From positions 558,001 to 622,000 of the forward strand of contig OZ024928.1 of NCBI GenBank assembly GCA_964017235.1: a DNA stretch of 64,000 nt. Direction: 5' to 3'. This stretch comes from Sabellastarte sp. h YS-2021 (taxonomy: Eukaryota; Annelida; Polychaeta; Sabellida; Sabellidae). The position numbers were made by a program, and so were the translations under genes. Each line of letters opens with the position of its first letter. Positions within the stretch are counted from its first letter, which is position 1. Positions 13,361 through 39,105 of this stretch are shown one piece after another. Below the pieces are notes generated by a model. It was not told the origin of the DNA. It worked only from the letters and a program-made list of their open reading frames with translations, and made no database searches.

Positions 13361-13475
13361 CACGCCTTTAAACAAAGGCTCAGATATGTCCAGGTTGGCT
13401 CGCCAAGCAAAGAATGACACATACGAGGTCAGCATCAGAATGAACACAAACAAACTGCCTTCTCCATAGGATTGC
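13361..13475 (-). CDS. TMEM260: TMEM260-like gene, exon e (115 bp)
   Basis: The acceptor is TTTACACAG|GCAATCC and the donor is GGCGTG|GTAAGTG. It enters in phase 2, leaves in phase 0, and reads QSYGEGSLFVFILMLTS, then YVSFFAWRANLDISEPLFKGV. The FFAWRANLDIS-PLF block is nearly the vertebrate TMEM260 sequence. In that family it follows a membrane helix of the GT-C fold. TMEM260 is an ER O-mannosyltransferase acting on IPT domains of plexins and the MET/RON receptors. The first bases of this exon and its acceptor are copied at least three times upstream (13476-13700). Confidence 0.93.
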
Positions 13476-13700
13476 CTGTGTAAACAAAGTACACAGAATC
13501 AGATTAAACACAAACTGCCGTCTCCATTGGATTGTCTGTGTAAACACATTACATAACAGAGCATTAAACACACACTGCCTTCTCCACAGCTTTCTCCACA
13601 GGATTGTCTGTAAACACAGTACATAACACAGCATAAAACACAGACTGTCTTCTCCATAGGATTGTCTGTGTAAACACAGTACATAACACAAATTGCAAGA
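13476..13700. repeat. Tandem copies of exon e acceptor region
   Basis: Units of about 65-80 bp each contain, on the minus strand, an acceptor-like TGTTTACACAG followed by an imperfect copy of the first roughly 30 bases of exon e (ACAATCCAATGGAGACGGC and variants). Copies start near 13530, 13600 and 13660. Confidence 0.85.
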
Positions 13701-14870
13701 TAAGCTTTTGTAGTGATGAACATATCCTGCAAATGTGAGAACTTTGCCTAAAATACCTTTTGATCTTGAGTGGGTAACGGGAAATTCTCTACACACTGCT
13801 TCATGTCCAACAAAGAAACACCTGTGGTGGCCATCTTGTCTTTTAAAATGAAGCCAAAAATATTCTCAGGCAGATTTTGTGATGATGAACATATCCTGCA
13901 AATTCGAGATCTCTACCTATAAAACCTTTTGCTCTAGAGGGGTAACTAAACTCCTTGCTGAAAGACGAAAAATGCCCATGGTGGCCATCTTATTTTTCAA
14001 AATTAGGCCAAAAATATTCCCAGTCAAGATTTTGTAATGATGAATATATCCTCCAATTTGAGAACTCTACCTATAATACGCCACAGGCATTCATTGGATT
14101 TTTTTTGTAGCACCCACTTTATGTGATTCACAATTATTATAAACTATTTTTTCATTTTTTTTTTTTTTTGGTCAATTTGAAAAAGTTCTCTGGGTAGATT
14201 GGTCATGGGCCTCACATACAGGATAAATGCCTACTTAAAGCCCTGGTTTTTGGCACCTAAAAAAAGAATATATTATTCCCAGATGAGATTTCAGCTGTAT
14301 CAGTCGCATAGTATAACAGTTATAAGGCTTAAAACTCGTGAAAAGTCAATAAATCGGGTTTCTATGGGCATTTTATCAACCTTAGGGTGACCTTAAAATT
14401 AAAGTTACAGACTTAAAATTTTTCAGAGACAAAGATTACATGTAGAAGTTATATCTACTACAGTTAGAGACTTGTCTGATTTACCATTTCCAGGTTACAG
14501 GACCAAATATATGGAAAATGTTGAAAAAGGGTCACTCGAGTGGGTGTTTAGGGCCCTCATACACAGGCTTAATGTCTATTTAAAGCCTTGATTTTTCTCA
14601 CATGTAAACATAGTGTTGTTGGGTTAGAGTTTGGGGTTAACCATTTACAGTAAACAAAAAACTCAAATTTCTAGTCTTAAGTTGGCCAAAACTTCTTTAT
14701 TGTTGGGAGTCTAAGGTCGAGTTAAAATAGGGTTCATCTTGTGACCCCAATACATATGTGTGTCAAGTGTGAATGAAATCTGTGAAAGTGTTTTTGAGTT
14801 ATCGTGCACACAATTCAAAACGTACGGCGGCAGCAGCGCAACAGACGTGGAACTAATATTTCCCTGACTT
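13701..14870. other. Intron with decayed roughly 150-bp repeats
   Basis: Three loose copies of a unit containing GATGAACATATCCTGCAAAT, GAGAACTCTACCTATAA and GGTGGCCATCTT lie at about 13700-14090. The remainder is AT-rich with no gene. Confidence 0.55.
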
Positions 14871-14879
14871 TTGTCTTGG

Positions 14880-15095
14880 GATTTAATTAGCTACCTGACC
14901 TGAATGCTATCACTTTAAAGTATGAATTAGATAACTGACCTGATTGTTGCCATTTTACATTATAAACTAAACAACTGACCTGATAGTTATCACTTCAAAT
15001 TATGAACTAGACAACTGACCTGATGATTATCACTTTACAGTATGAATTAGATACCTGACTTGTTATCATTTTACATTAAGAACTAGACCACTGAC
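14880..15095. repeat. Tandem copies of exon d donor region
   Basis: Four units of about 50-60 bp each carry CTGACCTGAT (once CTGACTTG). On the minus strand this is ATCAG|GTCAG, identical to the exon d donor. They lie immediately downstream of the genuine donor at 15095. Confidence 0.85.
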
Positions 15096-15182
15096 CTGAT
15101 GGTAACAGATGTGACACACCCAATCACACCAAAAACAATCGTCAACAAACCCAGGTTGGAGTAGCAGTGTTCAAAGTACGCT
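15096..15182 (-). CDS. TMEM260: TMEM260-like gene, exon d (87 bp)
   Basis: The acceptor is TTGCATTTCAG and the donor is ACCATCAG|GTCAGT. It enters and leaves in phase 2 and encodes AYFEHCYSNLGLLTIVFGVI, then GCVTSVTI: a short polar start and one strongly hydrophobic transmembrane segment. It joins exon c as GIT-AYFEH and exon e as TIR-QSYGE without losing frame. It sits where vertebrate TMEM260 has its least conserved middle helix, so identity comes from order and frame. Confidence 0.8.
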
Positions 15183-15436
15183 CTGAAATGCAAGGTGTAT
15201 CTAACTTTAATCCACAGTTTTCAGTTAAATTTGTTCAACTTTTTGAGTACAATTACATTAAATTTTATACATAAAATAAATCTTGATGTATAATAACTAC
15301 AGGTGATATACAGTCTAAAGACAGAAACAATAAATGCTACAATTAGTGCAAAACAATATTACACAGGATTCATTTCACTTCATGGCATGAACACTTTTGA
15401 TGGCTTTAATACAGTTACAAAGGGTTGATAACTTAC
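15183..15436. other. Short TMEM260 intron
   Basis: AT-rich 254-bp intron between exons c and d. No repeat was seen. Confidence 0.7.
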
Positions 15437-15477
15437 GTGATTCCAGCCACAAAACCCTGGCCTGCCGAGTCCTTACC
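15437..15477 (-). CDS. TMEM260: TMEM260-like gene, exon c (41 bp)
   Basis: A micro-exon with acceptor GTGTTTCAG|GG and donor ATCAC|GTAAGT. It enters in phase 0, leaves in phase 2, and reads GKDSAGQGFVAGI(T). It bridges EYGTFQL at the end of exon b and AYFEH in exon d. The Gly/Ser-rich composition suits the lumenal loop that follows the EYGTF motif. Confidence 0.78.
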
Positions 15478-15693
15478 CTGAAACACACAATCATACAGAA
15501 GTGTCACCTCAACACTTGTAATCTGGTCAGGTTTGGTGTATGAGCATTCATGTCAATGTTAACAGAGTAAAGCATTCTCAGAGATCTATATCAACCCAGC
15601 CCAGTGAAAGAAAAACTTAGCAAGAGTTCAGACAAAAATGTAAGGTACTTTGTATTTGTATTTATACTCAATATATCAATATACTCATATACA

Positions 15694-15910
15694 TAGTGGC
15701 TCGGATGACCACTTAAAATGGCAGTCCTCTGCCATTGGGTGCTATCCCCACTGGCAGGCTAAAGAACCTCAAGGATGTTGATAAATGGTCATCCTTGAGT
15801 CTCTGTCTTCAGTTACGGGAATGTGAGTTACTTGTGAGTTGGGGCTGTACCTGTACAGTCGGATGGGTTTAATAGTGCTTTGAGTCCTGTAGTATATGGA
15901 GATATATACT
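15694..15910 (+). mobile_element. SINE copy (tRNA head missing)
   Basis: The same sequence occurs in inverse orientation at 58640-58870. Shared blocks are CATAGTGGCT-GGATGACCAC, TGGCAGGCTAAAGAACCTCA, TTGATAAATGGTCATCCTTG and AGTCCTGTAGTATATGGAGA. The copy here begins inside the body. The other copy carries the tRNA-like head. Confidence 0.75.
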
Positions 15911-16139
15911 CCTGCACTCACACACAAATGCACTAGATTAGTTTTTTAATCTACCAGACTACCGTCTCGTGGGGAATCATAGAATTTTCTTGATCTATCA
16001 ACAACATTCACATTCTGATGCCACATTTACCACAACTGTAATATTAAATATCAAAACATTGTTAACAGTGTCAGATATAGGATAGTCCAGCCATAACACA
16101 TCACTCATCGGAGAACCGATGCAAATTTGTATCCACCAG

Positions 16140-16610
16140 AAAGAAAACTCACCAAAGCCAGTGAACCATCGTTTGACCTTGAAGGAGGGGCCAAAGGTCA
16201 AATCTAACAACATCATCACATTTTCACATTGCAAACCTCTAGGATCAATAATAAGAGAGTTATAAGCACTTTTAACTTTGGCTATCCTTGTTCGACATTG
16301 AAGGACAGGCCCAAAGTCAAATCCGACCACACCAGAAAATTCCCAGCCCATGATTTCCTATAGGTCGGTTTACCATTCCAAACCTCTAGGACCAATAATA
16401 AGTGAGTTATAAGCACTTTTAAGTTTGGCTATCCTCATTTGCCCTTGAAGGAGGGGCCCAAGGCCAAATCCGCCCACATCACAAGATTCCCAGCCCATGA
16501 TTTTCTATAGGTTGGTTTACCATACCAAACCTCTAGGACCAATAATAAGTGAGTTATAAGCACTTTTAAGTTTCGCTATCCTCCTTTGACCTTAAAGGAG
16601 GGGGGGGGGG
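16140..16610. repeat. About 160-bp tandem repeat, 3 copies, then G run
   Basis: Units contain AAACCTCTAGGACCAATAAT, AGTTATAAGCACTTTTAA and TTGAAGGAGGGGCCCAAGG. They share the flavour of the AGGTCA-rich family (CCAAAGGTCAAATC) but not its head. The array ends in a run of 16 or so G at about 16598. Confidence 0.8.
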
Positions 16611-17344
16611 GGGGGTAAAATGTGTTATACATATCACCTATGAAGAGATTCAACCTTCTACCTATGAGAAACAGTGATTAGAAAAATGTAGATAATTTTC
16701 AAAGAAATGCCCACAGCAGCCGTTTGTTTTTCAGAATGAGGCTTACCCCCCAATGAAGATATCCTGCAAATTTGGTGAACCTAGCTGGTGTAGTTTTACA
16801 CTTAGAGTGTTATCGCCGAAAATCTCTCTACGCGCGGCGGCGGCAGCTTAGCGAATGCTAAACCAAGGTGTCCACCGGATGCCTCTGTAAATTATGCATT
16901 CATCATTACCAAACAGGACGAGAAGTGATACTAAGATTTCACTTGCCCTGACCTAAAATCTACTTGACCGTACTTTGTTGTTCCATAGGTTAAGCATGTC
17001 TTTAGATTAATAATTACAATAATTGTGATATCACGAAGGACATTAAAATTATTTTCTATTATATGAATGTCATAATTATAAGTTTAATGATATGCCAGTG
17101 ACCAAATCAAATCAGTTATCGCACTTAAAGTCAAAGCTGGTGTATTACAACCTAAGGAGGTGAGTATAAATACTCCTCATAATGATTGCTCATCAAACTA
17201 TTCATCACAATTAATACTAAAATTAAAAAACTTGTACTGACTTAACCAGGGCACATCAATTTAATGTACCACTCACAATTTGAAGGTCTATAAATGGTCT
17301 ATAATTGTTTATCAGTCGGAGGTGTTTAAGCAAGTATTAGTTAG
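16611..17344. other. Intron, nothing recognised
   Basis: Mixed AT-rich sequence with a short CpG-bearing segment around 16830 (CGCGCGGCGGCGGCAGC). No coding signal and no repeat that I can delimit. Confidence 0.5.
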
Positions 17345-17501
17345 TGTTTTAGCACTCATCATTCAGTGTTTGAACACTTACAGTATGACAGTGTTACAAC
17401 AGTCACCAAGGTAAAAGTGTTTTAGCACTCACCAGGAGTAAACCAAGCACTCAGAAGTTAGGATTTAGCACTCACCAGTTGAAAGATATCTTAGCACCTA
17501 C
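17345..17501. repeat. Repeated copies of exon b donor
   Basis: The segment TTAGCACTCACCAG recurs near 17425 and 17465, with a weaker form at 17348. On the minus strand it reads CTGGTGAGTGCTAA, a good donor. The genuine donor of exon b (CAACTG|GTAGGTGCTAA) is the last member. The copy at 17465 even keeps the exon-side bases CAACTG. Confidence 0.75.
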
Positions 17502-17681
17502 CAGTTGGAAGGTCCCATACTCCTGTCTCAGTAAATGCCTGAAGAAGCCCTCTATGGTCCTCTGGTCTCCCCATGTCCAGCGTGCGGTGTTCAGGTGGGC
17601 AGACAGAGGAATGTAAGCATAAGGCAGCAATCCCAGGAGGAAGAAAAACATCAGCAGTAAGAAACGCCCGAGTGACAGTAG
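17502..17681 (-). CDS. TMEM260: TMEM260-like gene, exon b (180 bp)
   Basis: The acceptor is CTCCTGACAG|CTACTG and the donor is CAACTG|GTAGGTG. It has exactly 60 codons in phase 0. It reads LLSLGRFLLLMFFFLLGLLP, then YAYIPLSAHLNTARWTWGDQ, then EGFFRHLLRQEYGTFQL. The (L)LPYxYLPLSS-ARWTWGDQ block and the LLR-EYGTF block are diagnostic of TMEM260 (GT-C type, DUF2723 family). The exon contains one transmembrane helix and the start of the following lumenal loop. The intron to exon a is 20.5 kb and carries DIRS copy A and the 42-bp array. Confidence 0.95.
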
Positions 17682-18384
17682 CTGTCAGGAGAAAATATAA
17701 TCATTATCAAACAGACACAACAACAACAAAAGTGTGCACTGGCTGCCAGCCAACCATGGAGTGAAATCTTTGGATTAAAGTAGTGTTGTACCCAGAACTC
17801 CAGATGTGAATTTATTGTGTCTATCTTACTTTTACGATTAGTCAACTAGTTCATATAATAAATAGAAAACCATTTGAATTATATGAAAGTGTCAAATCGA
17901 TACTTTACACAAGCAAACTGTTAATATCTTGATAAAATATTCGATGAGTTAAAGTTAAAATAAAAAAATATATTGTTCTCAAGTATGACAAATATATTTG
18001 CAAAAGGCATGATTCTATTATCTATTTGTTTTGCATTTTTCTGAGATATGTTAATTTCTTGTGACCAGCAATGTGATGTCAAAGGTTTGTAAAGATTTGA
18101 AGGAATTCAACAATTTGGGTTTATACCATCTCAAAGCTGTGCACTATCAATATATTCTAGGATCGCAATGACTTGGAGGTCACCAAGTTTTGTAATATTG
18201 CCCATGGCAGACTTTAACACATTTTATTATTAGAAAAAATTAAAGGGTATATCTTTGCATCTTGAAAATATATTTTCAAAATGCTTGCATTAAAGACTGT
18301 CATATTATGGCCAATTAGTGATTTACAGTTAAAAGAAGCAATTCCGTGGGGTTTTCTTACTACAGTATAATACATACAGTACAG
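17682..18384. other. Intron, nothing recognised
   Basis: AT-rich, no coding signal and no clear repeats. Confidence 0.55.
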
Positions 18385-18910
18385 TGTCAAAATGAAAGCT
18401 CACTTCTGATTTGCTGGAAGACATGCTTCAGTAGCAATTTAATCAAATGAACTCACTGCACAGACAGGAAGGAAGCAGACAGCAAGATGACTTTTGAGGT
18501 CAGTCTCTCGTGGGACTGTTTGTGGTTACAAACTAGAAATAGAGCAATGAAAGCTTGCTTCTGATTGGCCAGAAGACATACTCATAAAACAGAGGAACTC
18601 ACTGTGCAGACATGAAGGAAGCAGATGGCAAGATGACTGTTGGTAATATTCTAGAAATGGAGGAATAAAAGCTTACTTCTGATTGGCTAGAAGATGTACG
18701 ATTCAACTAGAGGAACGCACTCCGTAGATGCGAAGGAAACAGACAGCAAGATGACTGTTGAGTTTATATACTAGAAGTGAAGCAATGAAAGCTCACTTCT
18801 GATTGGCTAGAAGATGTTCAATGTAGCCAGAGGAATTCACTGAACAGACACAAAGGAAACACACAGCAAGATTGAGCTTATATCGATGGAGCAGATGTGA
18901 AGGAAACAGT
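18385..18910. repeat. About 125-bp tandem repeat, 4 diverged copies
   Basis: Units share AATGAAAGCTCACTTCTGAT, TGGCTAGAAGA, GGAA-TCACTG-ACAGAC and GGAAACAGACAGCAAGATGA. Confidence 0.8.
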
Positions 18911-19379
18911 ATATGAATGAAGTGGTACTAGACATAATCACATTTGGTCATGTGACAACAGCAGTCAATGAAGACATGCATTTTAATTGGAGACGCACAG
19001 ATGATGAATTTACAATAACACTGATTGTGTGTCCCTAGACATGGATAAACTGGATAAAATAGACTCAACCGAGCATAGGAAAACAATAGCCAAGACAACA
19101 GATTCTAGGACACACAGGCCCTTACACAAAGTCAGTGATAGTTCTAGACTAACTTTTTTAAAGAGCGAGGATTTCTAGAGCTCGTTAGAACTCACACTTC
19201 TACAGATCACTTTTTTTTCTGTCTCCAGACTTTGATGAAATTGACAACACCTGTGGATTCTGAATTTCTCTTTCTTGCTCTCCAGTAGCTAAAAGAACAC
19301 ATGTCCTTTTGGCTTTTTCCCATACATATGTCCTTCCTGCATCGGACTTTCTTGAATTGTGGCACAGAGTGATGAGTAT
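18911..19379. other. Intron, nothing recognised
   Basis: Unique-looking sequence with no gene or repeat that I can support. It ends at the 5S-like segment. Confidence 0.5.
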
Positions 19380-19450
19380 TTGTCTGCTCACTGAAGTTAA
19401 GCAGCAATGGGCTATGTTAGTACTTGGATGGGTGACCGTCTCAGCTCGAC
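19380..19450 (+). repeat. 5S rRNA-derived segment (pseudogene or SINE head)
   Basis: TTGTCTGCTCACTGAAGTTA, then AGCAG, then GTTAGTACTTGGATGGGTGA followed by CCG, match the internal half of animal 5S rRNA including the C-box region of its internal promoter. The 5' third and 3' stem of 5S are absent, so it is not a functional gene. Confidence 0.7.
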
Positions 19451-19864
19451 CATCTGTGGGATGTGTCTAAGTTGGAATTTCTTTGTGTGACGAGACTTTG
19501 AAGTTCGTAAATTCTTGTGCACTACTCGTGTCTCTGATGGCTTTGCCCTCGCGCTAGGGGACAAAAACACCTTTTGGCCTTGTTTATAAAATATTCACCT
19601 GTAAAGTCATGAAACCAAAAACTAAATGGCAGACTGTATACTATACACCTTAATGTACACTTATATTATGTAGCATTTTAATACTGAAAGGCTAAAACGG
19701 GTGATTTAAAATTGCGACTGCTATTCAGTACATAACTCAAAGATTTAACTATAATAAATACAGCAGTAAGAAATCCTGAATTATAGCTGCTCTAACATAA
19801 CATAATGCATTTGATATTGCGCATTTTTTACAATCCTGTTTCAAATGGACATTTACATGGAAGC
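19451..19864. other. Probable LINE 3' untranslated region
   Basis: AT-rich and non-coding, directly downstream of the stop codon of the minus-strand LINE at 19865. No clear tail repeat was delimited. Confidence 0.45.
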
Positions 19865-21124
19865 TTATCTATAATATTTCTTAAAGAGATGGGTCTTGAC
19901 TTCTTTCCTAAACCTTTTCAGATTTGTACATTCCTTGATGTTGTAGGGTAGCTCATTCCACAGTGATGGGCCACTCACACTGAAAGATCTTGATGCAAAT
20001 GTGTGTCGACTTGTTTTTGGTACATGAAGATTGTTTGTGAAAGTAGAGGATCTGAGTCCTTCTCTGAGCACTGGTTTAGGAGTCAGGATTTTTTGCAGAT
20101 ATTCTTGAGCATTTCCGTGTAGGCATTTGTAAACAAGCACAATTATCTTGAACTCAATCCTGGCAGCAATTGGAAGCCAGTGCAGCTGCTTTCTGGATTC
20201 TGCTGAGCTTTCATGTTTTGTTCTGTTGAGGACTAATTTGGTAGCTATATTTTGAACTCGGCAATTTCTTGATTGAATTTTTTGGTAGGCCAAACAGTAC
20301 ACTGTTGCAAAAATCCAGATGTAACCAAACCTAAGAGTATGAGTGGCTTCTGTTGTGAGAGTAGATCTGATATTCCTGATTCTGTGAATATTTAGCATAG
20401 CTACTTTGCACTTGTGGGTAATGTGTTGTTTAAAGCTAAGTTGACTGTTTAAGTAAACTCCCATATATCTTTTATCAACACTTAATCTTACATCGTCACC
20501 ACACACCTTTAAATAGTTTGAAGAACACTTTTTCTATTGCTTTGGATGACCAAAAAGGATAAATTCAGCTTTTGTGCTATTCATTTTAAGTCTGTTGGAA
20601 TCCATCCATTGTTTTATGTCTTCTGCAGTTTTCTAGGGATCTAAGAGCTGTGGCTTTTGCTGAGATGTTGTTCGCAGAGAATGTTAATTTGATTGCATGG
20701 TCACCTGCATATCCGTGCAATGACATATGAGCTGGAACTATATACTTCATGGTACTTGAATAGTTGGAGTAGAGAATTGGACCAGCAGAACTACCCTGTG
20801 GTACTGAGAAATTTAGTGGGGTTTTATTAGAATAACTATCACCTATGTTCACACAGAATGATCTTGGTTGTAGATAGTTATTAAACCATTTCAAAGCATT
20901 TCCTGATATGCCTTATTGTTTCTGCAAAACTTCAAGTAAAATTTCATGATCAACTGTGTCGAATGCTGCTCACAGATCAATTGCCATCATTGCAGTAACT
21001 TCCTGATGTTCCATGGCCACAGAATGTCATTTGTTAATTTCACAAGGGCAGTTTCACAAGAAAACCCCTGCCTGTAAGCAGACTGATAATCAGGAAAAAG
21101 ATTTTGGGATTCCACATGCTCAAT
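19865..21124 (-). pseudogene. CR1/L2-like LINE reverse transcriptase, 3' part
   Basis: Minus-strand reading gives, in order, FIEHVESQNLFPDYQSAYR with GFSCETALVKLTNDI near 21000-21120, AIDL-AAFDTVDHEILLEVLQ near 20950, KWFNNYLQPRSF and NFSVPQGSSAGPILYS (20586-20894), then YAGDH in place of the catalytic YADD(H). The long C-terminal domain follows (19865-20506), ending PSLWNELPYNIKECTNLKRF, then FKKYYR. Stops and frameshifts are present. The 5' continuation lies beyond DIRS copy A at 27477-27700, so A is inserted in this LINE. Confidence 0.85.
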
Positions 21125-21300
21125 AAATTGAAAATTTTAATTACTTAAATGTAGCTTTTATAAGCTACAAGCTTACCATGTGGGACTTATTGCTGTTCTT
21201 GGGTTGCCACACCCGGGGCCAACGTCTTAGAAAAAAAGATCATTCTTGTTAGCCACCGGATATACTGGTAGTTGTCGTCACGTGATAACTTCTGATCAAT
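21125..21300. repeat. Copy A left (3') inverted terminal repeat
   Basis: It is complementary to the right end: GTGGGACTTA-TGCTGTTCT, GGTTGCCACACCCGGGGCC, then GTTAGCCACCGGATATACTG and CGTCACGTGATAACTTCTGA. The outermost 50 bases (TTAATTACTTAAATGTAGC) are not shared with the right end but are complemented in the ICR. Confidence 0.93.
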
Positions 21301-21378
21301 CGCCCTACTTTCTCGTTGAAATTTTTTAAAACCTACCCCTCAGCTGTAAACAGCGGGGAGGCAGGGTGGGACTCTCCT

Positions 21379-21480
21379 AAGTCCCACATGGTAAGCTTGT
21401 AGCTTATAAAAGCTACATTTAAGTAATTAAAATTTTCAATTTTATTACGCTACAATAGTTTACCATGTGGGACTTAATGC
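21379..21480. repeat. Copy A internal complementary region (ICR)
   Basis: It reads as a circle junction: the complement of the left terminus (GTCCCACATGGTAAGCTTGT...TTAAAATTTTCAAT) fused to the complement of the right terminus (ATTTTATTACGCTACAATAG...CATGTGGGAC). In DIRS elements this region is thought to template completion of the ends and circle closure. Confidence 0.92.
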
Positions 21481-21866
21481 TGAATTCAACTGCCCGGTGG
21501 CGGGATTACAGCTGAGACTGGAAGATATGTCATTTTTTCTAAGATTTTGAATTAATATGTACAGAATAGTGCCAGAAATACCAGTCTGAGTCCATTTACA
21601 GTGCCCCGATCCCGAAGACCGGGCCTGTAACGAGCCAAAAACCTAAGTAAAATGAGACAGTGCTGAAAACTGTCTAGATGTTTGATTGTAGGACGGAAGT
21701 GCAGCAGAGCTCACTTCGAGGTCTAAGGGTCCCTGAGGTACCTTCACTAGTGACTGACCAACCCATGGTTGGACATCTCATAAATTTTGTAACCTGAATA
21801 TGAGATTAATGACAACTAAATAAGTCCTTAATAGAAATTACTTGATAACTAAAAAACAAAATGACC

Positions 21867-23698
21867 TTACCCGTAACATCTTGAAGGTAGATCCTGGGAG
21901 AGACTCCTGAAGACTTGGTTGTAGCGGATGTGACCTCCCCCCCCTCCCCCCCACCCCCACCCCCCTTTTTTTTCTTTCCGAGGACAACTGGTCTGAGGGG
22001 AAGGATCTAGGACTTGTTGTGCCGCCACTACGGGTCCCAGATACATATTGTTGTCTGACCAAGTAAAGTCTTTTAGGTAAAAATTTGTAAATGTGTTGTG
22101 AGCTTTCCAGTGACAGGCTTGCATGATTTGGTCCACCGATACCCCACCGTAAAAGGCATTAGAGGCCGCGGAAGCCCGGATGTCATGCGCTTTAACTTGG
22201 ACCAAGTCCAAGGCTTGTTGATCTGCTTGTTTGTAACAAAGTAGAATGGTTTGTTTCAACCAGGAAGAGAGTGTAGCGGGTCTGAGGTATGTCCTTTCTT
22301 AAAGGAGATGAAAAGGAGAGAACGAGACCCTCTCAGGTCTTTCGTTCGGTCCAGATAAAACCTCAGGGCCCGCACGGGACACAGGGTCCTGTCTTCTTTA
22401 AATTGTCTATCTACAATGGTAGTCAAAGCAGGAATAGTCAACGGAGACACACTTTGAGAACCTTCTCTTGCTAGTTGGTTTTTGCCTATGAAATCAAAAG
22501 AAGGGAACAAGGCAACCTTTTCCCATGGGCCTAGATTAGATACTTTGTTTGCGACCCAGGCATGGATTTCGCTGCGGCGCTTGCCGGAGGCCAAAGCTAG
22601 CAAGAAAGCAGTTTTGAGAGTGAGATGTTTGAGGTCTGAGTCTTTCATGGGCTCAAATGGTGCTTTTGTGAGCTCGTTGAGGACAACAGAAAGGTTCCAC
22701 TTGGGTAAATTTCTGGAACTTTTGGGAACTTTCTGGAACGATCCCTGTGAAAACTGGAGAGTAACCTGTGAAGGTCTGCATTATGTGCAATATGGAGGGC
22801 CGTTGGGCCCAAAGTGTCAACGATTGCAGTCCTGTAACCATCAACGGTCGAGGGGCGCCTGTTTAGGTCTTGGTACAGGTACATGAAAAAAATCTGAGAT
22901 TTGTTTCACAGATGGAGTGGAGAAATCCACCGAATTTTCTCGGCACCATTTTTCAAATAGGGCCCACTTTGACTTGTAGATGGTCCTTGTTGATGACCGC
23001 TGAGGGGCAGCAATTCTCTCTGCCACCTCCACAGAGAAGCCTTGTTCTTGGAGTTGTCCGCTCCTAGACACCAGGCGTGGAGGTTCAGCTGCTGGGGGTT
23101 GTTGTGGAACACATACTTGTGGGACTGTTTGAGTAGGGTCGTTGACACTGGGAGTTGTAGTGGGATCTCTGTTGAGAGCTGCACTAGGTCCCAAAACCAG
23201 GGCATCCCTGGCCAGTCTGGGGTTATCACGATGATCAGGCAATGACATTGCTTGATCTTTTGGATCACCTTGTGAAGGAGAGCCGTAGGAGGGTAAGCAT
23301 AGGCCGTGAGGTTGGTCCAGTTTATGTTTAGAGCATCTATGTCCCAGGCCCTTGGGTCTCAGATAGGAGACACGTACAGTGGGAGCTTGTGGTTCAGGTG
23401 AGTGGCAAATAAGTCTACATGAGGTGTGAACCACTTCTGGCAGATCTGTTTGAACACCTGTGGGTGCAGAGACCATTCTGTTGACTGCACTTGGTTGGAC
23501 CTGGACAGTAGGTCGGCCATCACATTCAGGCAGCCTGGGATGTGCCTGGCTTTTAATGTTATGTGGTAGTGATGGCACCAGGTCATGATCTTCCACAGGA
23601 GAGCACACATCTCTGCTGAGTGAGTTCCTCCTTGTTTGTTGATGTAGGCTACCACTGTTGAGTTGTCTGTAGCAACTAACACTGTTTGGTTCTGGCAC
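21867..23698 (-). pseudogene. Copy A tyrosine recombinase (YR) ORF
   Basis: The integrase of DIRS elements. The N-terminal SAM-like part includes GFSVEVAERIAAPQ and TIYKSKWALFEKWCREN. The core has ALASGKRRSEIHAW (first catalytic Arg), VKAHDIRASAAS (His-x-x-Arg), CHWKAHNTFTNFYLKD (His and the Tyr nucleophile) and LGPVVAAQQV near the end. All catalytic residues that I can place are present. The frame is broken near 22880 (an A-run insertion relative to copy B), near 22680 and near 22257. Upstream, an open frame overlaps RT-RNase H on the same strand for more than a kilobase (up to 24648), as in other DIRS elements. A conserved purine-rich tract lies at 21935-21985. Confidence 0.88.
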
Positions 23699-27304: not shown

Positions 27305-27476
27305 TGGCCAACGAGAAAGTAGGGCGATTGGTCAGAAGTTATCACGTGACGACAACTACCAGTATATCCGGTGGCTAACAAGAACGATCTTTTTTTCTAA
27401 GACGTTGGCCCCGGGTGTGGCAACCCGAGAACAGCATTAAGTCCCACATGGTAAGCTATTGTAGCGTAATAAAATT
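27305..27476. repeat. Copy A right (5') inverted terminal repeat
   Basis: The inverse of 21170-21300, with TATCCGGTGGCTAAC, GACGTTGGCCCCGGGTGTGG and GTCCCACATGGTAAGCTATT. It ends in GTAGCGTAATAAAATTG. It contains the presumed promoter, although no TATA box was confirmed. Confidence 0.92.
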
Positions 27477-27700
27477 GCTTCTGGTCTGTAGTTAGTAATA
27501 GTTACATAGTTCTAAGTCTAGTCCTTTCTTTTTGAGGAGTGGTCTGATTATTGCATTCTTCCATTTACTTGGAAAGGCACCAGTTTGCAATGACTTATTG
27601 ATGATCAGAGTTATATGCTTAATAATGGCACCAAGAACTTTTTTAAATTACAAAGAATTGAATGGTTATGAAGGTGTTCTCCAAAGCAGTAAAAGTGATT
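27477..27700 (-). pseudogene. CR1/L2-like LINE reverse transcriptase, upstream part
   Basis: The minus strand reads LIINKSLQTGAFPSKWKNAI, then IRPLLKKKGLDLELCNYY, then YRP (after a stop) up to the DIRS A end at 27476. This is the RT block that normally lies just before the Q-(F)-I-E-H block found on the other side of copy A. Together they show a single LINE split by the DIRS insertion. It is 5'-truncated or too decayed beyond about 27700. Confidence 0.82.
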
Positions 27701-28495: not shown

Positions 28496-28724
28496 TATCG
28501 CAATGTCTGTGTATACAAGATTTATATCACTGCTACTGTACCCACTAAGCAGTTTGGCTTCAGTTTTGCCTTTGATGCTCCCACTGTTTGGAATTCACTT
28601 CCTAAAGACATTTCGTGCATCACCCACTATTGCCTCTTTTAGAAAGAAGCTCAAAACCTATCTCTATGCAAAGGTATATCCTCCTTAGCTAATTTTCTCT
28701 TATGGCTTCTCCCTGGTGCTTCCC
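28496..28724 (+). pseudogene. LINE reverse transcriptase tail with solitary 42-bp unit
   Basis: At 28545-28690 the plus strand reads FSFAFDAPTVWNSLPKDIS and, after a frameshift, SFRKKLKTYLYAK. This is the C-terminal signature of CR1/L2-like RTs. Directly upstream (28500-28543) lies one copy of the 42-bp minisatellite unit, separated from the main array by this tail. Confidence 0.72.
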
Positions 28725-31700
28725 AATCTCTGTGTATACAGGATTTATATCACTGTTACTGTACCCAATGTCTGTGTGTACAAGATTTATATCACTGTTA
28801 CTGTACCCAATGTCTGTGTATACAAGATTTATATCACTGTTACTGTACCCAATGTCTGTGTATACAGGATTTATATCACTGTTACTGTACCCAATGTCTG
28901 TGTGTACAAGATTTATATCACTGTTACTGTACCCAATGTCTGTGTATACAGGATTTATATCACTGCTACTGTACCCAATGTCTGTGTGTACAAGATTTAT
29001 ATCACTGCTACTGTACCCAATGTCTGTGTGTACAAGATTTATATCACTGTTACTGTACCCAATGTCTGTGTATACAAGATTTATATCACTGTTACTGTAC
29101 CCAATGTCTGTGTGTACAAGATTTATATCACTGTTACTGTACCCAATGTCTGTGTGTACAGGATTTATATCACTGCTACTGTACCCAATGTCTGTGTATA
29201 CAAGATTTATATCACTGTTACTGTACCCAATCTCTGTGAATACAAGATTTATATCACTGTTACTGTACCCAATGTCTGTGTGTACAAGATTTATATCACT
29301 GCTACTGTACCCAATGTCTGTGTGTACAAGATTTATATCACTGCTACTGTACCCAGTGTCTGTGTGTACAAGATTTATATCACTGTTACTGTACCCAATG
29401 TCTGTGTGTACAAGATTTATATCACTGCTACTGTACCCAATCTCTGTGAATACAAGATTTATATCACTGCTACTGTACCCAATCTCTGTGAATACAAGAT
29501 TTATATCATTGTTACTGTACCCAATGTCTGTGTGTACAAGATTTATATCACTGTTACTGTACCCAATCTCTGTGAATACAAGATTTATATCACTGCTACT
29601 GTACCCAATCTCTGTGAATACAAGATTTATATCACTGTTACTGTACCCAATCTCTGTGAATACAAGATTTATATCACTGTTACTGTACCCAATCTCTGTG
29701 AATACAAGATTTATATCACTGTTACTGTACCCAATCTCTGTGAATACAAGATTTATATCACTGTTACTGTACCCAATGTCTGTGTGTACAGGATTTATAT
29801 CACTGCTACTGTACCCAATGTCTGTGTATACAAGATTTATATCACTGTTACTGTACCCAATCTCTGTGAATACAAGATTTATATCACTGTTACTGTACCC
29901 AATGTCTGTGTGTACAAGATTTATATCACTGCTACTGTACCCAATGTCTGTGTGTACAAGATTTATATCACTGTTACTGTACCCAATGTCTGTGTGTACA
30001 AGATTTATATCACTGCTACTGTACCCAATGTCTGTGTGTACAAGATTTGTATCACTGTTACTGTACCCAATGTCTGTGAATACAAGATTTATATCACTGT
30101 TACTGTACCCAATGTCTGTGTGTACAGGATTTATATCACTGCTACTGTACCCAATGTCTGTGTATACAAGATTTATATCATTGTTACTGTACCCAATCTC
30201 TGTGTATACAAGATTTATATCACTGTTACTGTACCCAGTGTCTGTGTGTACAAGATTTGTATCACTGCTACTGTACCCAATGTCTGTGTGTACAAGATTT
30301 ATATCACTGTTACTGTACCCAATGTATGTGTGTACAAGATTTATATCACTGCTACTGTACCCAGTGTCTGTGTGTACAAGATTTATATCACTGCTACTGT
30401 ACCCAATGTCTGTGTATACAAGATTTATATCACTGTTACTGTACCCAATGTCTGTGTATACAAGATTTATATCACTGTTACTGTACCCAATCTCTGTGAA
30501 TACAAGATTTATATCATTGTTACTGTACCCAATGTCTGTGTGTACAAGATTTATATCACTGCTACTGTACCCAATGTCTGTGTATACAAGATTTATATCA
30601 TTGTTACTGTACCCAATGTCTGTGTGTACAAGATTTATATCACTGCTACTGTACCCAATCTCTGTGAATACAAGATTTATATCACTGCTACTGTACCCAA
30701 TGTCTGTGTATACAAGATTTATATCACTGTTACTGTACCCAATGTCTGTGTATACAAGATTTATATCACTGCTACTGTACCCAATGTCTGTGTATACAAG
30801 ATTTATATCACTGTTACTGTACCCAATCTCTGTGAATACAGGATTTGTATCACTGTTACTGTACCCAATGTCTGTGTGTACAAGATTTATATCACTGCTA
30901 CTGTACCCAATCTCTGTGAATACAAGATTTATATCACTGTTACTGTACCCAATCTCTGTGAATACAAGATTTATATCACTGTTACTGTACCCAATCTCTG
31001 TGAATACAGGATTTATATCACTGCTACTGTACCCAATGTCTGTGTGTACAAGATTTATATCACTGTTACTGTACCCAATGTCTGTGTGTACAAGATTTAT
31101 ATCACTGTTACTGTACCCAATGTCTGTGTATACAAGATTTATATCACTGCTACTGTACCCAATGTCTGTGTGTACAAGATTTATATCATTGTTACTGTAC
31201 CCAATGTCTGTGTATACAAGATTTATATCACTGTTACTGTACCCAATGTCTGTGTGTACAAGATTTATATCACTGTTACTGTACCCAATGTCTGTGTATA
31301 CAAGATTTATATCACTGCTACTGTACCCAATGTCTGTGTGTACAAGATTTATATCACTGTTACTGTACCCAATGTCTGTGTGTACAAGATTTATATCACT
31401 GTTACTGTACCCAATGTCTGTGTATACAAGATTTATATCACTGCTACTGTACCCAATGTCTGTGTGTACAAGATTTATATCATTGTTACTGTACCCAATG
31501 TCTGTGTATACAAGATTTATATCACTGCTACTGTACCCAATGTCTGTGTGTACAAGATTTATATCATTGTTACTGTACCCAATGTCTGTGTATACAAGAT
31601 TTATATCACTGTTACTGTACCCAATGTCTGTGTGTACAAGATTTATATCACTGTTACTGTACCCAATGTCTGTGTATACAAGATTTATATCACTGTTACT

Positions 31701-32867
31701 GTACCCAATGTCTGTGTGTACAAGATTTATATCACTGTTACTGTACCCAATGTCTGTGTATACAAGATTTATATCATTGTTACTGTACCCAATGTCTGTG
31801 TGTACAAGATTTATATCACTGTTACTGTACCCAATGTCTGTGTATACAAGATTTATATCATTGTTACTGTACCCAATGTCTGTGTGTACAAGATTTGTAT
31901 CACTGTTACTGTACCCAATGTCTGTGTATACAAGATTTATATCACTGCTACTGTACCCAATGTCTGTGTATACAAGATTTGTATCACTGCTACTGTACCC
32001 AATGTCTGTGTGTACAAGATTTGTATCACTGTTACTGTACCCAATGTCTGTGTATACAAGATTTATATCACTGTTACTGTACCCAATGTCTGTGTATACA
32101 AGATTTGTATCACTGCTACTGTACCCAATGTCTGTGTGTACAAGATTTGTATCACTGTTACTGTACCCAATGTCTGTGTATACAAGATTTATATCACTGC
32201 TACTGTACCCAATCTCTGTGTATACAAGATTTATATCACTGTTACTGTACCCAATGTCTGTGTATACAAGATTTATATCACTGTTACTGTACCCAATGTC
32301 TGTGTATACAAGATTTATATCACTGTTACTGTACCCAATCTCTGTGTGTACAAGATTTATATCACTGCTACTGTACCCAATGTCTGTGTGTACAAGATTT
32401 GTATCACTGCTACTGTACCCAATGTCTGTGTGTACAAGATTTGTATCACTGCTACTGTACCCAATGTCTGTGTGTACAAGATTTGTATCACTGCTACTGT
32501 ACCCAATGTCTGTGTGTACAAGATTTGTATCACTGTTACTGTACCCAATCTCTGTGTATACAAGATTTATATCACTGTTACTGTACCCAATGTCTGTGTA
32601 TACAAGATTTATATCACTGTTACTGTACCCAATGTCTGTGTGTACAAGATTTATATCACTGCTACTGTACCCAATGTCTGTGTGTACAAGATTTGTATCA
32701 CTGCTACTGTACCCAATGTCTGTGTGTACAAGATTTATATCACTGCTACTGTACCCAATGTCTGTGTGTACAAGATTTATATCACTGCTACTGTACCCAA
32801 TGTCTGTGTGTACAAGATTTGTATCACTGCTACTGTACCCAATGTCTGTGTATTCAAGATTTATATT
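28725..32867. repeat. 42-bp minisatellite, 98 complete units
   Basis: The unit is AATGTCTGTGTGTACAAGAT, TTATATCACTGTTACTGTAC, CC. From 28725 to 32840 the spacing is exactly 98 x 42 bp with no indel, followed by a 26-bp partial unit. Variation is limited to a few positions (AATGTC/AATCTC, TGTGTG/TGTGTA/TGTGAA, CAAG/CAGG, TTAT/TTGT, CTGT/CTGC, CACT/CATT). Because 42 is a multiple of three, two plus-strand frames stay open for nearly 1,400 codons. The third is blocked by TGA in the TGTGAA variants. It lies in the intron between TMEM260 exons a and b. I regard it as non-coding. Confidence 0.97.
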
Positions 32868-34870
32868 TCGGCCAATATAGCCAATGGCTGTGGATGCTAA
32901 CTCACAATCTTAACAGGAATTGAACTTTTTAAGTTTATCACACTCCTTACAGTGGTAATAAATTTAGACAAATTGCAAGATTAATTAAAGGACAAGTGAT
33001 ATGCTAAACTATGTATGAAGATTGGATATTTTTATCTCAGTAGATGGAAGCAGGTCACCATTGCTTAGACAGGGATTAAAATCAAGTTTTACATGTGTAA
33101 AATATTGTGGTGATCCGGGATTGTGGGGTTGCTATCCGGGGTTTAGCAGTCACCGAAGATAGGGGACCAGCTCGTAAAACATGAGTACAGGAAGTATGCA
33201 CTTTTTGGTTTGAATTTGACCACACAACAAGTGTTTCTAGAAAATCTATCAAAGAGCGATCTGGGCTGTGTTCCCTACAGTCCAGGCTTATATAAAACGT
33301 CTGATAAGATGAAGTACGTGTACAACTATGTGCACAGAGTTCAAGTCCTGTTATAAAGCAGGGGAAGTGGCAGTTTTATTTTACTGGTACCAGAAGTAAA
33401 CTGGAGTGGATTTGTGTCCTATTTACGATTGGTATCCATATTGTCACTTTGAAAATATTATGTACCAGAGCTGATAGTAATTGGAAATATATTTAACTGA
33501 TTTGATTAGCGAAATTTCCACATATTAAATTACTGTGATTTGCGGTAATTCACACATTAAATTACCGTGATTTGGTAGTTTTAAATAGTGGAAAAACTCT
33601 GTTCATCAACTCTGTCAGTAGCATATATTTATCATATGTGTGACATTTAATACTGAAGTTGAAAATACAGTAAGTTATTATTAAAATTCATACTTACTGT
33701 TTATTTATATCCATACTTTGGTGTGAATTTTTTGGAAAATAATTGGAAAAGTATTTACAGTGAGTAATATTGGAATATTTACTGTTATCATTGTAATTTA
33801 TATTCATGCTGATATAGTGTGAACTATTTCTAATTGAATTTATTCTGAATTACTGTTGTTGGCGGTTCAGGTTCTTTGAAAAAAAAAAAAGAATAAGTGT
33901 GGATTTTGACATTTCTCACTGTCACACATATAGCTACAGTGTGAATTCATTTTTTATTCATACTGTGTGTGTGAATTCTAATTATAATTCTAATAGCACT
34001 TTTATAACGCTTAATCTCTGTCAAAAGAAAAAACTCTAAGGCGCATCACACAAAAACATTGTTCAATATTCATAAACCAGAGACATTGCAGGGGTCAGCA
34101 CCGCGGAGAAAGCAGGAGGAGATTGGAAATTTAGGGTGGATATGCTTTTCCAAAGAGGTATGACCTTCAACTTTGACCTGAATAAATTTAATTCCCATTT
34201 TGACAACTTTCTTTGTTGTACAAAAATTAAGCAAATTTTAAAAAAAATCACTTTTTGGTTGATTATGGTTGTATTGGTTTGTAACCATTCGGGCCATTAT
34301 TGATATTTGGTTACATTTTTTAACCGATTTTGAAATTTGGAAATTTATTGTTGCTCAAATTGCGAATTTTTGAAATTGATTTGCATGAAAATTGAAATCA
34401 GCTGATTCGTGCATCATATTTTGACAAAAAAAATTCTGATTAAAGTCAAGTTGCATGTGGACAGTTGACAAGTTTACAGGTCCCAGTTTGCAGGAAGGGA
34501 TAAGCAGTCAACTGATCAATGACTAGTTAAGTATACAAGTTGTTTTATTTACAATTCTGTTTACTTAAATCTTGACTATAAAATTTTTAGGCATTATGGT
34601 TATAGTCTAATGTAATTATTATTACTTAATTATTGACTTTGAACAATATTACAACTTTGTAATTTTATTTCGAAAATAAAGTTTTGAAAAGTAACTGACT
34701 TATTTTATCGAGTTGCATTTGTGTAATAAGAAAATTTATTGTCAGTAAAACAAAATTCAACTTGTTATGTTGCATTGTATGTAATACATATATTAGATGA
34801 AATAAAGTTGAAAAAAATAAACAAATTTTTATCTGTGTTCAAATTGGTTGAAGAAAGATAACAGATAAAA
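32868..34870. other. AT-rich region, possible remains of a 5' LTR
   Basis: No gene. Because a gag starts at 34880, an LTR and leader are expected somewhere here. AATAAAGTTTTGAAAAG near 34675 resembles an LTR polyadenylation signal. Without the second LTR the borders cannot be set, and I see no convincing primer-binding site. Confidence 0.35.
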
Positions 34871-34879
34871 AAAAACAAG

Positions 34880-36072
34880 ATGGCAGAAGCAAAGCTGTTC
34901 CACATTGAAACTGTTACAGTTGAAATGCTGAAGACGATCCATGGAATTGGAGATGTCAGAGCAGAAGCCATTATATCTGTCCGATCAAGATGCGGGGGTG
35001 TTATGACTGCTGAACAGTTTGCAGAAGTCGAGATTCCTGATAGTGTCAAGCAGGAGATTGTTTCCACAGGGATCATCCAGTTCAGTGATGGTGATGTCAG
35101 CTCGGGACAAGATGTCGTGCCATGTGATGGTCAAGTCCAGATGTCAAAGTTGTCACCAAAGTTGAAAGTTGATCCACAACAGGAAGTTGCGTTGCCACTG
35201 ACTGTTGAAACTCGTTTGGATCAGATGTCACAGAGACTGGACAACACAGTGAAGTCTTTGGATGAAATGAAAAAGGGAACTGAATCCATTGATCACAAAA
35301 TGTCTGATTTCATGAATAAGATACGTGGTGGGTTTCAGACCAAGTGTGAAGAAGCCATAAAGCCGGTCGCTGAAAAATGTGATGTGGTGGAATTAGAGCA
35401 GAAAGTTGATAAAAATCAAGATAATGTCCAGAGTAAAATCAGCGATATAAGGCAAGAAGTGGTACAACAGCTACATGACAGTTCAAAAAGTTCTGAAGAA
35501 AGTGCCAAAGTCAGAGAGTTAAATCCCGCCAGGAATACTGATGTTAAGCCCAAGGTACAGTTTGCTGACCAACAATCTATGGAGAACAAAATAGACCGAC
35601 TAGAAAAGACATTAAGTGACTTAGTTCGTGGACTGAATCGTTCTACAACCAGAACTCAGCAACCCAGTGTTAGTCAAATGGCTTGTTATGAGTGTGGGGA
35701 GAGAGGACATTTTTCACGTGATTGCCCAAGGGGGAGGTATTCACAAGTCCTAGATCTAATGGTGCCAGGTATTGGAATCATGATGGACCATATAACCGAA
35801 GTGATTATAACCCATATGATGATCCAGAAGGACGTGGCAGAAAACCACCAAGATATGGTTATAGTCCAAATAGATCCTCAAACAGTCCAGGCAGAAATAA
35901 CTACACTGGTAGAAGTGACCAATACTCCCAATTAGAGGTCAAGGTCCAATGAACAGCCAAGAAACTATCGGTCAAGTTCACCTGGACAATCTCCCAGTCG
36001 CAGTTTTAGAGATGTCAAAAATACACCACCTCGTGGTTACTCCAAGAAATCCAAGATGACCCCTTTAAACTG
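34880..36072 (+). pseudogene. LTR-retrotransposon gag with HhH motif and zinc knuckle
   Basis: The start is ATG at 34880 (MAEAKLFHIE) after an A-rich stretch. Residues about 13-50 (LKTIHGIGDVRAEAIISVRS, then a Gly-Gly turn, then TAEQFAEVEI) look like a helix-hairpin-helix fold of the ComEA type, unusual in a gag. Residues 100-220 are charged and coiled-coil-like. A CCHC knuckle follows at about 270 (CYECGERGHFSRDC). The open frame runs to 35935, but the basic Arg/Ser/Tyr/Asn-rich tail lies in another frame from about 35735 (SNGARYWNHDGPYNRSDYNP, PRGYSKKSKM, stop near 36072). A one-base slip in the G run after CPRGR therefore breaks it. Gag packages RNA. The family is not certain: Ty3-like is most likely. 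Confidence 0.78.
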
Positions 36073-36078
36073 ATAAGG

Positions 36079-36365
36079 GGGGTGAGTGCCAACGCTGTTT
36101 CTCATAAACACCAGAAAGATGGTTCAACTCACCATTGTCACATTTGTAAGGGTAATAAGCAGAATTTAAGCACAATTATTCCATGCTCAATCAATGGATA
36201 TCCAACCAAAGCATTGCTGGATACAGGTGCAGAGGTTAGCTTATTGAGTTTTGATGTGTATGGGAAATTGCAAGAAAAGCCACCTTTGTCAGAAAAATAC
36301 AGGTAGACTGGTGTTGCCAAGAACATGAATGCATGGATGTTAAAGGGAGTTAAAGGTCATAGGAA
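36079..36365 (+). pseudogene. LTR-retrotransposon aspartic protease fragment
   Basis: Reading from about 36079, HHCHICKG precedes CSINGYPTKALLDTGAEVSL. LLDTGAE is the catalytic aspartate motif of retroviral-type proteases. A stop at 36306 is followed in frame by TGVAKNMNAWMLKG. No RT, RNase H or integrase follows; the element ends near 36365. It is the natural neighbour of the gag 5' of it. Confidence 0.75.
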
Positions 36366-38184
36366 GCATTTTTCACAAAAATTGTAAATTTAACTTAATT
36401 CAATAGACAAACACCCTATAAGAATGAAAATGTGGTTTATTTTAAGAAATATATGGTACAAGAGTCATAAATAGCATTAGAAAAAATATATATAACGAAG
36501 TGGAGTAAAAAGCCAACATATTGTTTTCCTCGTAGTAGATGATTGATGACGTCACAGGTTCATAGCGAAGTTCTGTTTAGTTAGACATATAATGTACATA
36601 TGTACAAACTAAAGGAAGAGAACATGTTTCTTCGAAGTTTTGCCGGGGCGGGGGGGGAAGCTCACTAGCCTTTATTTTTTCCATGTGCTGTTATTTTTCT
36701 CAAGTTTTACCTCATTTTTAACCACTAACAGTTCTAACAAACACATGAGAAATACTATAAGTATACTTGTCTTAGAATGCAGAAAGCGTGAACATCGGTA
36801 TGATATATTACCTTTTCCCATTTTTTTTCAAGGTTTTTAAACTGTGATGGGTAGTAGCCTTTCACAAGTTAGATATTTACATAAAACTAAAAATCTGTTG
36901 ATAAATTCAAAAGCTGTCATTAAAATGTACTGGATAATGTTTTTTTGCCTTTAATCACCGGTACTTCTATCAAGATAAGGTATGATGTAAAGTGAAATCA
37001 AAATATGAAATTTGTTTTCATTTGCATAAATCATTTATAAAAAAATCATGCTGTTGTAGTCAAATTCATTGAATTTTTTCGGAAAAAATCCTTAAAGTTC
37101 TAACTTTTATATTATCAGTTCATGAAATAATTCAGTATATAATGGGTTTTCCTTAATATAGTAGTTTAGTGCTTTAGGGTTAGGGGTTGGTTTAACCCTT
37201 GGTGTAGACAGATGTACATATGATGAATATCAAAGAATAAAGTCTTAATTAGCACATCAAATATCTTTCAAACATCAAAAATTGCCCAAACCTTAAACTC
37301 AAAGTTATTTTGCAGCTGTGAGGGAGCTTAAGGGAATCTTTTCCTGTAGGTTTTGTTCACAGTTTGTTACATCCACAACTTGAAAGATGCTTAGAATTGC
37401 ACAGTGTTTGAAATACTGTTGAAATATTGCCAAACTTGAAGTGAATATAATTCTGTTATTACTGAGAGTTTAAGGTCACCTTATTGTATGGCACATACCT
37501 GTTGCCAGTTACATATACATGCAAAATTTGAATAAAATTTCTGAAGTTATTTTCAGTATACTCCATGGAGAAAGAAAAAAACGTTAACTGGACGTAACTT
37601 TTTTATACGTGAGCGTTTAAGGTCACCTTAAAATAGGGCACACCTTCAAAACTAGTTACAATCACACCCAAAATTTGAATTGAATCCGTCAACCCATTTT
37701 TCAGATATGGTCCGGAAAAGAAAAACCTTAAACTCAAGATAAGTATGTTACTAGTGGGAGTTTTAAGGTCACCAAACTATACAGCACACCCTGAGAACTA
37801 GTTACATCCACATGCCAAATTTGAACTTAATCTAGCAAGCCATTTTTGAGATACTGTCCGGAATAGAAAGTGTGACAACAGATGACACCAACGACGACGA
37901 CAGACGACGACAATGCTGACGCCACAAAATGAGATCACGATGCAATCCCTATATGCCACGCAGCATAAATGCTGGTGACACAACAATCTTCACTTGAAAT
38001 ATTTTAATATACTATGTTTTGTTGTATTTTATTGAGCTAAAAGCCAGCAGAAGAGTTGTGGAATGAACTTTACTTTAATGTCTATTTGTGGTGAGAATGG
38101 TACATATATTTAGTGGCTCAACCAATAACAGGCTAAACTAAAACATGAAGCTTATAATCCTGAGATACAGGCATCTGGACTGAC
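36366..38184. other. Intron with decayed roughly 120-bp repeats
   Basis: No gene. Between about 37440 and 37870 a unit with GAGTTTAAGGTCACCTTA, GTTACAT-CACATGCCAAATTTG and GAGATACTGTCCGGAA recurs about three times, degenerate. The rest is AT-rich. Confidence 0.5.
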
Positions 38185-38298
38185 CTTAATTCTGATGAGA
38201 GTGTACAGCACCCAGCCGGCTAGTGGAAGAACATAGAGCACAATAGTGTGCTGATTGCATAGTGACAGACCACAGACAAACGCTCCACAGTAACTCAA
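38185..38298 (-). CDS. TMEM260: TMEM260-like gene, exon a (114 bp)
   Basis: The acceptor is CATGTTTTACAG|TTGAG and the donor is ATTAAG|GTCAGT. It has 38 codons in phase 0: [20 protein letters not shown], then [18 protein letters not shown]. The [18 protein letters not shown] block is a near match to vertebrate TMEM260. It holds a conserved loop and a transmembrane helix. It continues directly into exon b as in the human order. It is the most upstream exon visible. The earlier exons (with the N-terminal catalytic DS/GE region) must lie beyond 64000, because nothing TMEM260-like was found between 38300 and the right edge. The acceptor has been amplified into the 50-bp array next to it. Confidence 0.95.
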
Positions 38299-39105
38299 CT
38301 GTAAAACATGTAGCAATAAACAGTCATTATAAATACACAGTAACTCAACTGTAAAACATGTAGCAATAAACAGTCATTATAAATACACAGTAACTCAACT
38401 GTAAAACATGTACCAATAAACAGTCATTATAAATACACAGTAACTCAACTGTAAAACATGTACCAATAAACAGTCATTATAAATACACAGTAACTCAACT
38501 GTAAAACATGTACCAATAAACAGTCATTATAAATACACAGTAACTCAACTGTAAAACATGTAGCAATAAACAGTCATTATAAATACACAGTAACTCAACT
38601 GTAAAACATGTACCAATAAACAGTCATTATAAATACACAGTAACTCAACTGTAAAACATGTACCAATAAACAGTCATTATAAATACACAGTAACTCAACT
38701 GTAAAACATGTACCAATAAACAGTCATTATAAATACACAGTAACTCAACTGTAAAACATGTACCAATAAACAGTCATTATAAATACACAGTAACTCAACT
38801 GTAAAACATGTACCAATAAACAGTCATTATAAATACACAGTAACTCAACTGTAAAACATGTACCAATAAACAGTCATTATAAATACACAGTAACTCAACT
38901 GTAAAACATGTACCAATAAACAGTCATTATAAATACACAGTAACTCAACTGTAAAACATGTACCAATAAACAGTCATTATAAATACACAGTAACTCAACT
39001 GTAAAACACATACCAATACACAGTCATTATATATACACAGTAACATTGTGAACACGTAAAATACCTAGTCAATGCATAGTCATTATAAACACACAGTAAC
39101 TGCTG
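38288..39105. repeat. 50-bp array grown from the exon a acceptor
   Basis: About 15 near-identical 50-bp units, CAGTAACTCAACTGTAAAAC, ATGTACCAATAAACAGTCAT, TATAAATACA, then two decayed ones. On the minus strand each unit is 39 bp of intron end (ATGTTTTACAG) plus the first 11 bp of exon a (TTGAGTTACTG). The first unit overlaps the true exon. The only regular variant is GTAGC or GTACC. Confidence 0.96.

Follow-up and report, generated by a model that had tools for sequence, protein, structure and literature searches.

Tandem repeats that copy the end of an exon together with its splice site have been described in amphioxus as "mirages", in Adh3, the globins BflGb6 and BflGb9, and troponin C (PMC3087553, PMC3902484), and PGBD5 has been compared with these, troponin C being cited (PMC3902484). 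Mirages have also been proposed as an origin of new introns (PMC3087553). In amphioxus, as reported, (i) the repeat unit consists of an intron end and the adjoining part of the exon; (ii) acceptors and donors are both duplicated; and (iii) AG or GT is found in many but not all copies. The same features are seen in the genome studied here: the copies hold 6–51 exon bases and 2–96 intron bases (17 borders); in one gene, a TMEM260-like gene, the acceptors of exons a, e, h and i and the donors of exons b and d are duplicated; and AG or GT is present in 34 of 37 copies. Whereas the earlier note on this DNA knew of no described system of this kind, the amphioxus mirages, as reported, fit its description (PMC3087553).

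The amphioxus reports further describe undisturbed regular splicing, length differences between haplotypes and somatic instability, while the arrays presented here are known from the sequence of one assembly. Unlike the amphioxus work, our analysis concerns another animal, finds six cases that probably all belong to a single gene, and sets the rate of border copies against that of intron points. In the literature that could be reached, border-copy repeats were recognised in no mollusc from titles and opening lines of abstracts, and one gastropod paper dealt with another subject; reports may nevertheless exist among the subscription papers, most of which lay beyond reach. What may be new is the occurrence of mirages in the animal studied here, together with a rough rate of between 8/117 (strict test) and 14/144 (lenient test) sampled borders.

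An Introner is a mobile intron, one sequence dispersed over many places in a genome; the DNA of the exon e array, the only array used as a query, matched its own place and no other, so that, as far as that search sees, this array is not a widely dispersed element (absence of a match being no proof of rarity). In tandem exon duplication, as in mutually exclusive exons, each copy comprises the complete exon and its two splice sites, whereas the aligned copies here hold 6–51 exon bases and a single border. In intron gain by tandem duplication, as treated by Rogers, by Zhuo, by Gao and Lynch and in the work on potato RdRp, the new intron is said to arise inside an exon; here, in contrast, existing borders have been copied into existing introns. 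The likeness lies in splice signals being carried along by a local duplication (Rogers 1989; Zhuo 2007; Gao and Lynch 2009; potato RdRp, PMC4974935). Finally, human paralogs in segmental duplications are reported to contain internal tandem repeats and minisatellite expansions, some of which lie where exon and intron meet and may have created new introns; unlike the case described here, those repeats belong to recent primate duplicates, and half of them lie in coding sequence (PMC2812944).

The TMEM260-like gene and the copies at its borders

The genome examined, represented by one assembly, comprises 1.79 Gb in 647 contigs, and the window, the whole stretch of DNA analysed, spans 64,000 nucleotides. 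Joined exons of one muscle-type myosin of this genome gave their best matches with squid and scallop PDB chains, which would suggest a mollusc as the source; a second myosin was closest to non-muscle and smooth-muscle chains, a result that is uninformative on this point. The TMEM260-like gene lies on the minus strand (Table 1). Joined, exons e-d-c-b-a matched PDB chain 9rql_A (TMEM260) over residues 178–353 (E 2.3e-47), and exons a and f matched TMEM260 residues 322–374 (E 1.1e-15). The identity of the gene rests on the match to 9rql_A, because the Pfam TMEM260 model scored the joined exons at 17.9 bits, under its cut-off of 24.2. A search of the genome with this model gave two matches, C2:656558-656740 and C2:655892-656167, both on the minus strand and about 34 kb outside the window, which we read as N-terminal exons h and i in locus L093. 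The second match reaches model position 173, overlapping the positions assigned to exon e (143–173), and its last part lies past the exon i donor. Since the phases of exons h, i and e, as read from the sequence, are compatible, exons h and i are likely to be part of the same gene as exons e to a. Six-frame PDB searches for 3' exons returned no match, nor did a motif scan of 104 kb for N-terminal exons.

Table 1. Exons and repeat arrays of the TMEM260-like gene, in plus coordinates of the window
Feature	Position	Strand	Description
Exon e	38185..38298	-	part of the joined e-a match to 9rql_A
Exon d	17502..17681	-	in the joined e-a match to 9rql_A; acceptor position as in the border test
Exon c	15437..15477	-	border scores 9 and 13, below the threshold of 15
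Exon b	15096..15182	-	in the joined e-a match to 9rql_A
Exon a	13361..13475	-	in the joined e-a match to 9rql_A
Exon f	7526..7599	-	spotted by eye, confirmed by the joined a+f match; border scores 9 and 9
Exon g	7271..7364	-	putative, with only an open frame and splice sites as evidence; borders score 10 and 8
e-acceptor array	38286..39044	-	TRF: 50 bp x 15.2 copies, 99%; unit includes the acceptor and 13 exon bases
a-acceptor array	13450..13690	-	TRF: about 60 bp x 3.8 copies; includes the acceptor, the best copy holding about 26 exon bases
b-donor array	14885..15101	-	TRF: 40 bp x 5.5 copies; includes the exon b donor
d-donor copies	17330..17502	-	in the intron adjoining exon d; two good copies and one degraded copy, missed by TRF
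Background array	28722..32866	.	TRF: 42 bp, 98.7 copies (4.1 kb); in the intron separating exons e and d, away from borders

Exons e, d, c, b, a, f and g have 14 borders, the number the earlier note had seen, but only 10 of these lie within 13361..39105, the coordinates it gave; exons h and i bring the gene to nine exons with 18 borders. Close to four borders, namely the exon a and e acceptors and the exon b and d donors, stand copies whose units contain the splice site with both intron and exon bases, as the earlier note had claimed for these four borders. At the exon e acceptor, 14 intronic copies were recognised, all 14 with AG and 13 of them identical to the true acceptor over 25 bases; at the exon a acceptor, all three recognised intronic copies have AG. 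The array at exon a is real, but the 50-bp unit that had been ascribed to it belongs to exon e. Four of the five recognised copies of the b donor read ATCAG/GTCAG or TTCAG/GTCAG, and the two good copies of the d donor lie 26 and 69 bp downstream of the true site. Outside the window, a TRF array ends at the exon h acceptor; 11 copies of this acceptor and the exon start were recognised, mostly 35–41 bp apart, with AG in nine. For the exon i acceptor a single copy was recognised, 138 bp upstream, and further degenerate ones are visible by eye.

We compared 47 bases per border (12 intron and 35 exon) without gaps against up to 700 bases of the adjoining intron, with a threshold score of 15; the null, drawn from regions of other families and from reversed regions, reached a maximum of 14 in 1103 comparisons. 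Scores were 25 for e, 31 for a, 16 for b and 15 for d. The d-donor case, only just above the null maximum, is weak. Altogether 6 of the 18 borders (acceptors a, e, h and i; donors b and d) score at least 15, h and i probably belonging to the same gene, and the best copies are identical to the true border at 91% (a), 88% (b), 86% (d), 83% (h) and 76% (i) of positions.

TRF arrays cover 3 of the 10 borders tested (the acceptors of e and a and the donor of b) and none of the borders of exons f and g. Across the window TRF coverage is 20.1%, and between 13361 and 38298 it is 21.9%. Raw coverage would thus lead one to expect about 3 covered borders out of 14, although the 4.1-kb background array accounts for much of it. 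Coverage by TRF was set aside as the only measure, since it missed diverged copies (those at d and i, and at L040, a CCT border).

Borders and intron points in other gene families

For comparison, we sampled exons of the same genome from three conserved gene families: (i) CCT, with 29 of 30 loci (L021 left out) from 55 matches; (ii) myosin head, with 30 loci from 78 matches; and (iii) kinesin, with 23 matches in 20 stretches, out of 126. The 82 exons gave 164 candidate borders, of which 144 entered a lenient test; the strict set kept 119, 117 of them tested, after 45 were dropped for a weak splice score, a frame running on, or double counting.

In the lenient test, 14 of 144 borders scored at least 15 (CCT 4/52, myosin 6/54, kinesin 4/38). 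Eleven of these 14 were flagged as border-spanning, one of the eleven being a 4-bp microsatellite (L044); L017, L031 and L046 carried no such flag. The strict test gave 11 of 117 borders with a score of at least 15, and 8 that were border-spanning and not simple sequence (5/60 acceptors, 3/57 donors).

Among the long-flanked borders of CCT and myosin genes, 5 of 86 (5.8%) were positive in the strict test, compared with 87 of 1462 intron points (5.95%) in the same flanks, the bootstrap confidence interval of the difference (borders minus intron points) running from -4.7 to +4.7 points. The lenient control for these families agreed, with 10 of 106 borders against 119 of 1484 intron points (8.0%; Fisher p=0.58). 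By TRF only, 1 of 93 borders was covered, as against 5–11 of 93 points placed 100–1200 bases into the intron. Borders are thus hit about as often as intron points, in a small sample from one species whose confidence interval allows a modest excess or deficit, and in which the conserved exon half of a border lets old copies stay visible longer while some control points possibly fall within border arrays. Local duplication therefore looks blind to the border. The earlier note had suggested that splice borders are prone to duplication, and had proposed a comparison with intron positions as the check; run on the CCT and myosin sample, that comparison shows no excess at borders, within the power of a small sample, and speaks against the suggestion.

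Border copies occur in unrelated genes, namely at L042 and L040 (CCT), L070 (myosin) and L088 (kinesin). The L042 acceptor is copied 126 bp upstream together with about 51 exon bases, and a weaker copy lies further upstream; this clear case is left out of the strict set by its splice score of -1.5. TTTCAG recurs in the array (43 bp x 8.5 copies) that precedes the L070 acceptor, the exon extent of the copy being unsure because the border was scored inside its own array. L088 is a donor with a 26-bp array.

The 17 borders at which aligned copies were measured comprise the six of the TMEM260-like gene and 11 of the 14 lenient hits (L031, L044 and L046 omitted). With 6–51 exon bases in the copies, the breakpoints lie away from the splice site. 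This favours random local duplication over an origin that is templated by RNA or anchored at the splice site. Copies of exon-internal segments become fewer with distance into the exon, from 5/106 at +10 to 2/106 at +50.

Origin of the arrays and fate of the copied sites

We consider it probable that the arrays are mirages, that is, minisatellite-like tandem duplications that by chance span an exon-intron border. The similar rates at borders and at intron points suggest a by-product of frequent local duplication, not a special system: tandem duplication in the introns of this genome would fall on borders as it falls on other intron points. A duplication spanning a border would leave a complete splice site beside the exon body, so that the message could stay normal and the event be roughly neutral; the number of copies may later grow by unequal exchange or slippage, as with the 15-copy array at exon e. 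The copies would subsequently decay at the rates of intron sequence, with the outermost, true site kept by selection. That the true site is the outermost member of each array, as had been noticed earlier, follows from geometry, because tandem duplication over an acceptor or donor puts the extra copy on the intron side; selection is not needed to explain it.

Alternatively, the exon borders of some genes, including TMEM260, could be duplication hot spots, for instance through germ-line DNA breaks linked to transcription or splicing, with arrays gathering over time. This reading, which we regard as unlikely, draws on the 6 of 18 TMEM260 borders with copies and on the differing apparent ages of the arrays (99% identity by TRF at e; best copies from 91% at a down to 76% at i). 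The proportion exceeds that of the strict sample (8/117; Fisher p=0.0038) and of the lenient one (14/142; p=0.013), both comparisons being post hoc for a gene picked for its pattern. It also exceeds the 22 of 418 intron points of the same gene (p=0.0004), a control that excludes the border arrays and the 4.1-kb array and thereby favours a difference; against near-border intron points of the gene with arrays included (48/199), p=0.40. At base rates of 6–10%, the probability of at least 6 of 18 is 0.0005–0.006. The fairer part of this evidence is provided by exons h and i, which were fetched through the Pfam match after the hypothesis had been formed and have copies at 2 of 4 borders (P 0.02–0.05 at the same base rates). 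Against a hot spot stand the CCT and myosin borders, which show no excess over intron points, and the choice of the gene for its arrays, such an outlier being expected among thousands of genes (a gene number that we assume).

Two readings of the excess in TMEM260 are left, chance brought out by the search and a propensity of the gene itself, the latter being improbable in our estimation. The earlier note regarded chance at four borders as unlikely; the gene does stand above the strict sample, post hoc, but raw TRF coverage of about 20% predicts about 3 of 14. An extended version, in which some genes of this lineage, TMEM260 among them, attract repeated border duplications through a splicing- or transcription-linked process and over long times build arrays of spare intact splice sites from which introns grow and new exon borders arise, likewise seems to us unlikely.

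That the arrays might be functional, as stores of decoy or alternative sites by which splicing of the gene is tuned, we consider very unlikely. AG or GT is present in 34 of the 37 recognised copies (20 of 23 when those at e are set aside), more than the 75% identity at the other core positions would suggest, and two d decoy donors score above the true donor (7.1 vs 5.1). This retention is not to be read as selection, since the copies are non-independent and were picked by similarity. There is also no sign that decoy sites are being purged. Each acceptor copy examined would, if used, lead to a stop or a frame shift: stops in the exon frame are predicted for 3/3 copies at a, 6/6 (of 11) at h and 1/1 at i, and for 5 of the 6 examined (of 14) at e, where the sixth would shift the frame. 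The donor copies at b and d are of mixed phase. As read from the sequence, these stops and frame shifts would argue against protein variety arising from the acceptor copies, though not against a use that leads to message decay.

Least probable, to the point of being nearly negligible, is an artefact in which the assembler collapsed or expanded repeats: the exact length of the e array, 99% identical over 15 copies, may be wrong, and one amphioxus mirage was judged misassembled in a draft genome (PMC3087553), but identity to the true border is only 76–91% for the best copies of borders a, b, d, h and i, and diverged copies are not expected from an assembler.

As mirages, the arrays offer natural tests of how the splicing machinery chooses among near-identical neighbours, exon e with its 14 acceptor copies being an example.

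Repeats in introns of the TMEM260-like gene

Matches elsewhere in the genome identified window 13702–14080, in the intron beside exon a, as part of a repeat, with at least 39 other scored genome places at 80–89% identity. At window 19380–19450 lies a stretch that we take to resemble 5S rRNA and that is perhaps the head of a SINE. The 42-bp array is away from any exon border.

Candidate dispersed elements

The recurring sequence with words like GCTACAATAGCTTACCATGTGGGAC lies, in both orientations, at the ends of an apparent mobile element. Four separate arrays apparently have their unit in common, which suggests a dispersed element carrying internal tandem repeats.

Locations of recurring sequences and tandem arrays
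Feature	Location	Orientation or context
GCTACAATAGCTTACCATGTGGGAC-type sequence	window 21140–21500, 27440–27480, 44060–44430	both orientations
GCTACAATAGCTTACCATGTGGGAC-type sequence	L093 (locus outside the window with exons h and i), near 350	plus strand
42-bp array, 98.7 copies (TRF)	window 28722–32866	intron separating exons e and d
Arrays, 138–146 bp unit	window 8528–8952, 12239–12611, 50694–51272, 57400–57869	

Myosin-head exon copies

On another contig of this genome, a myosin-head exon pair, matching model positions ~127–173 and ~167–200, occurs in about eight tandem copies (G000:C14:20123497-20142816), spaced mostly ~2353 bp apart; they may represent alternative exons or an array of gene segments confined to this locus.
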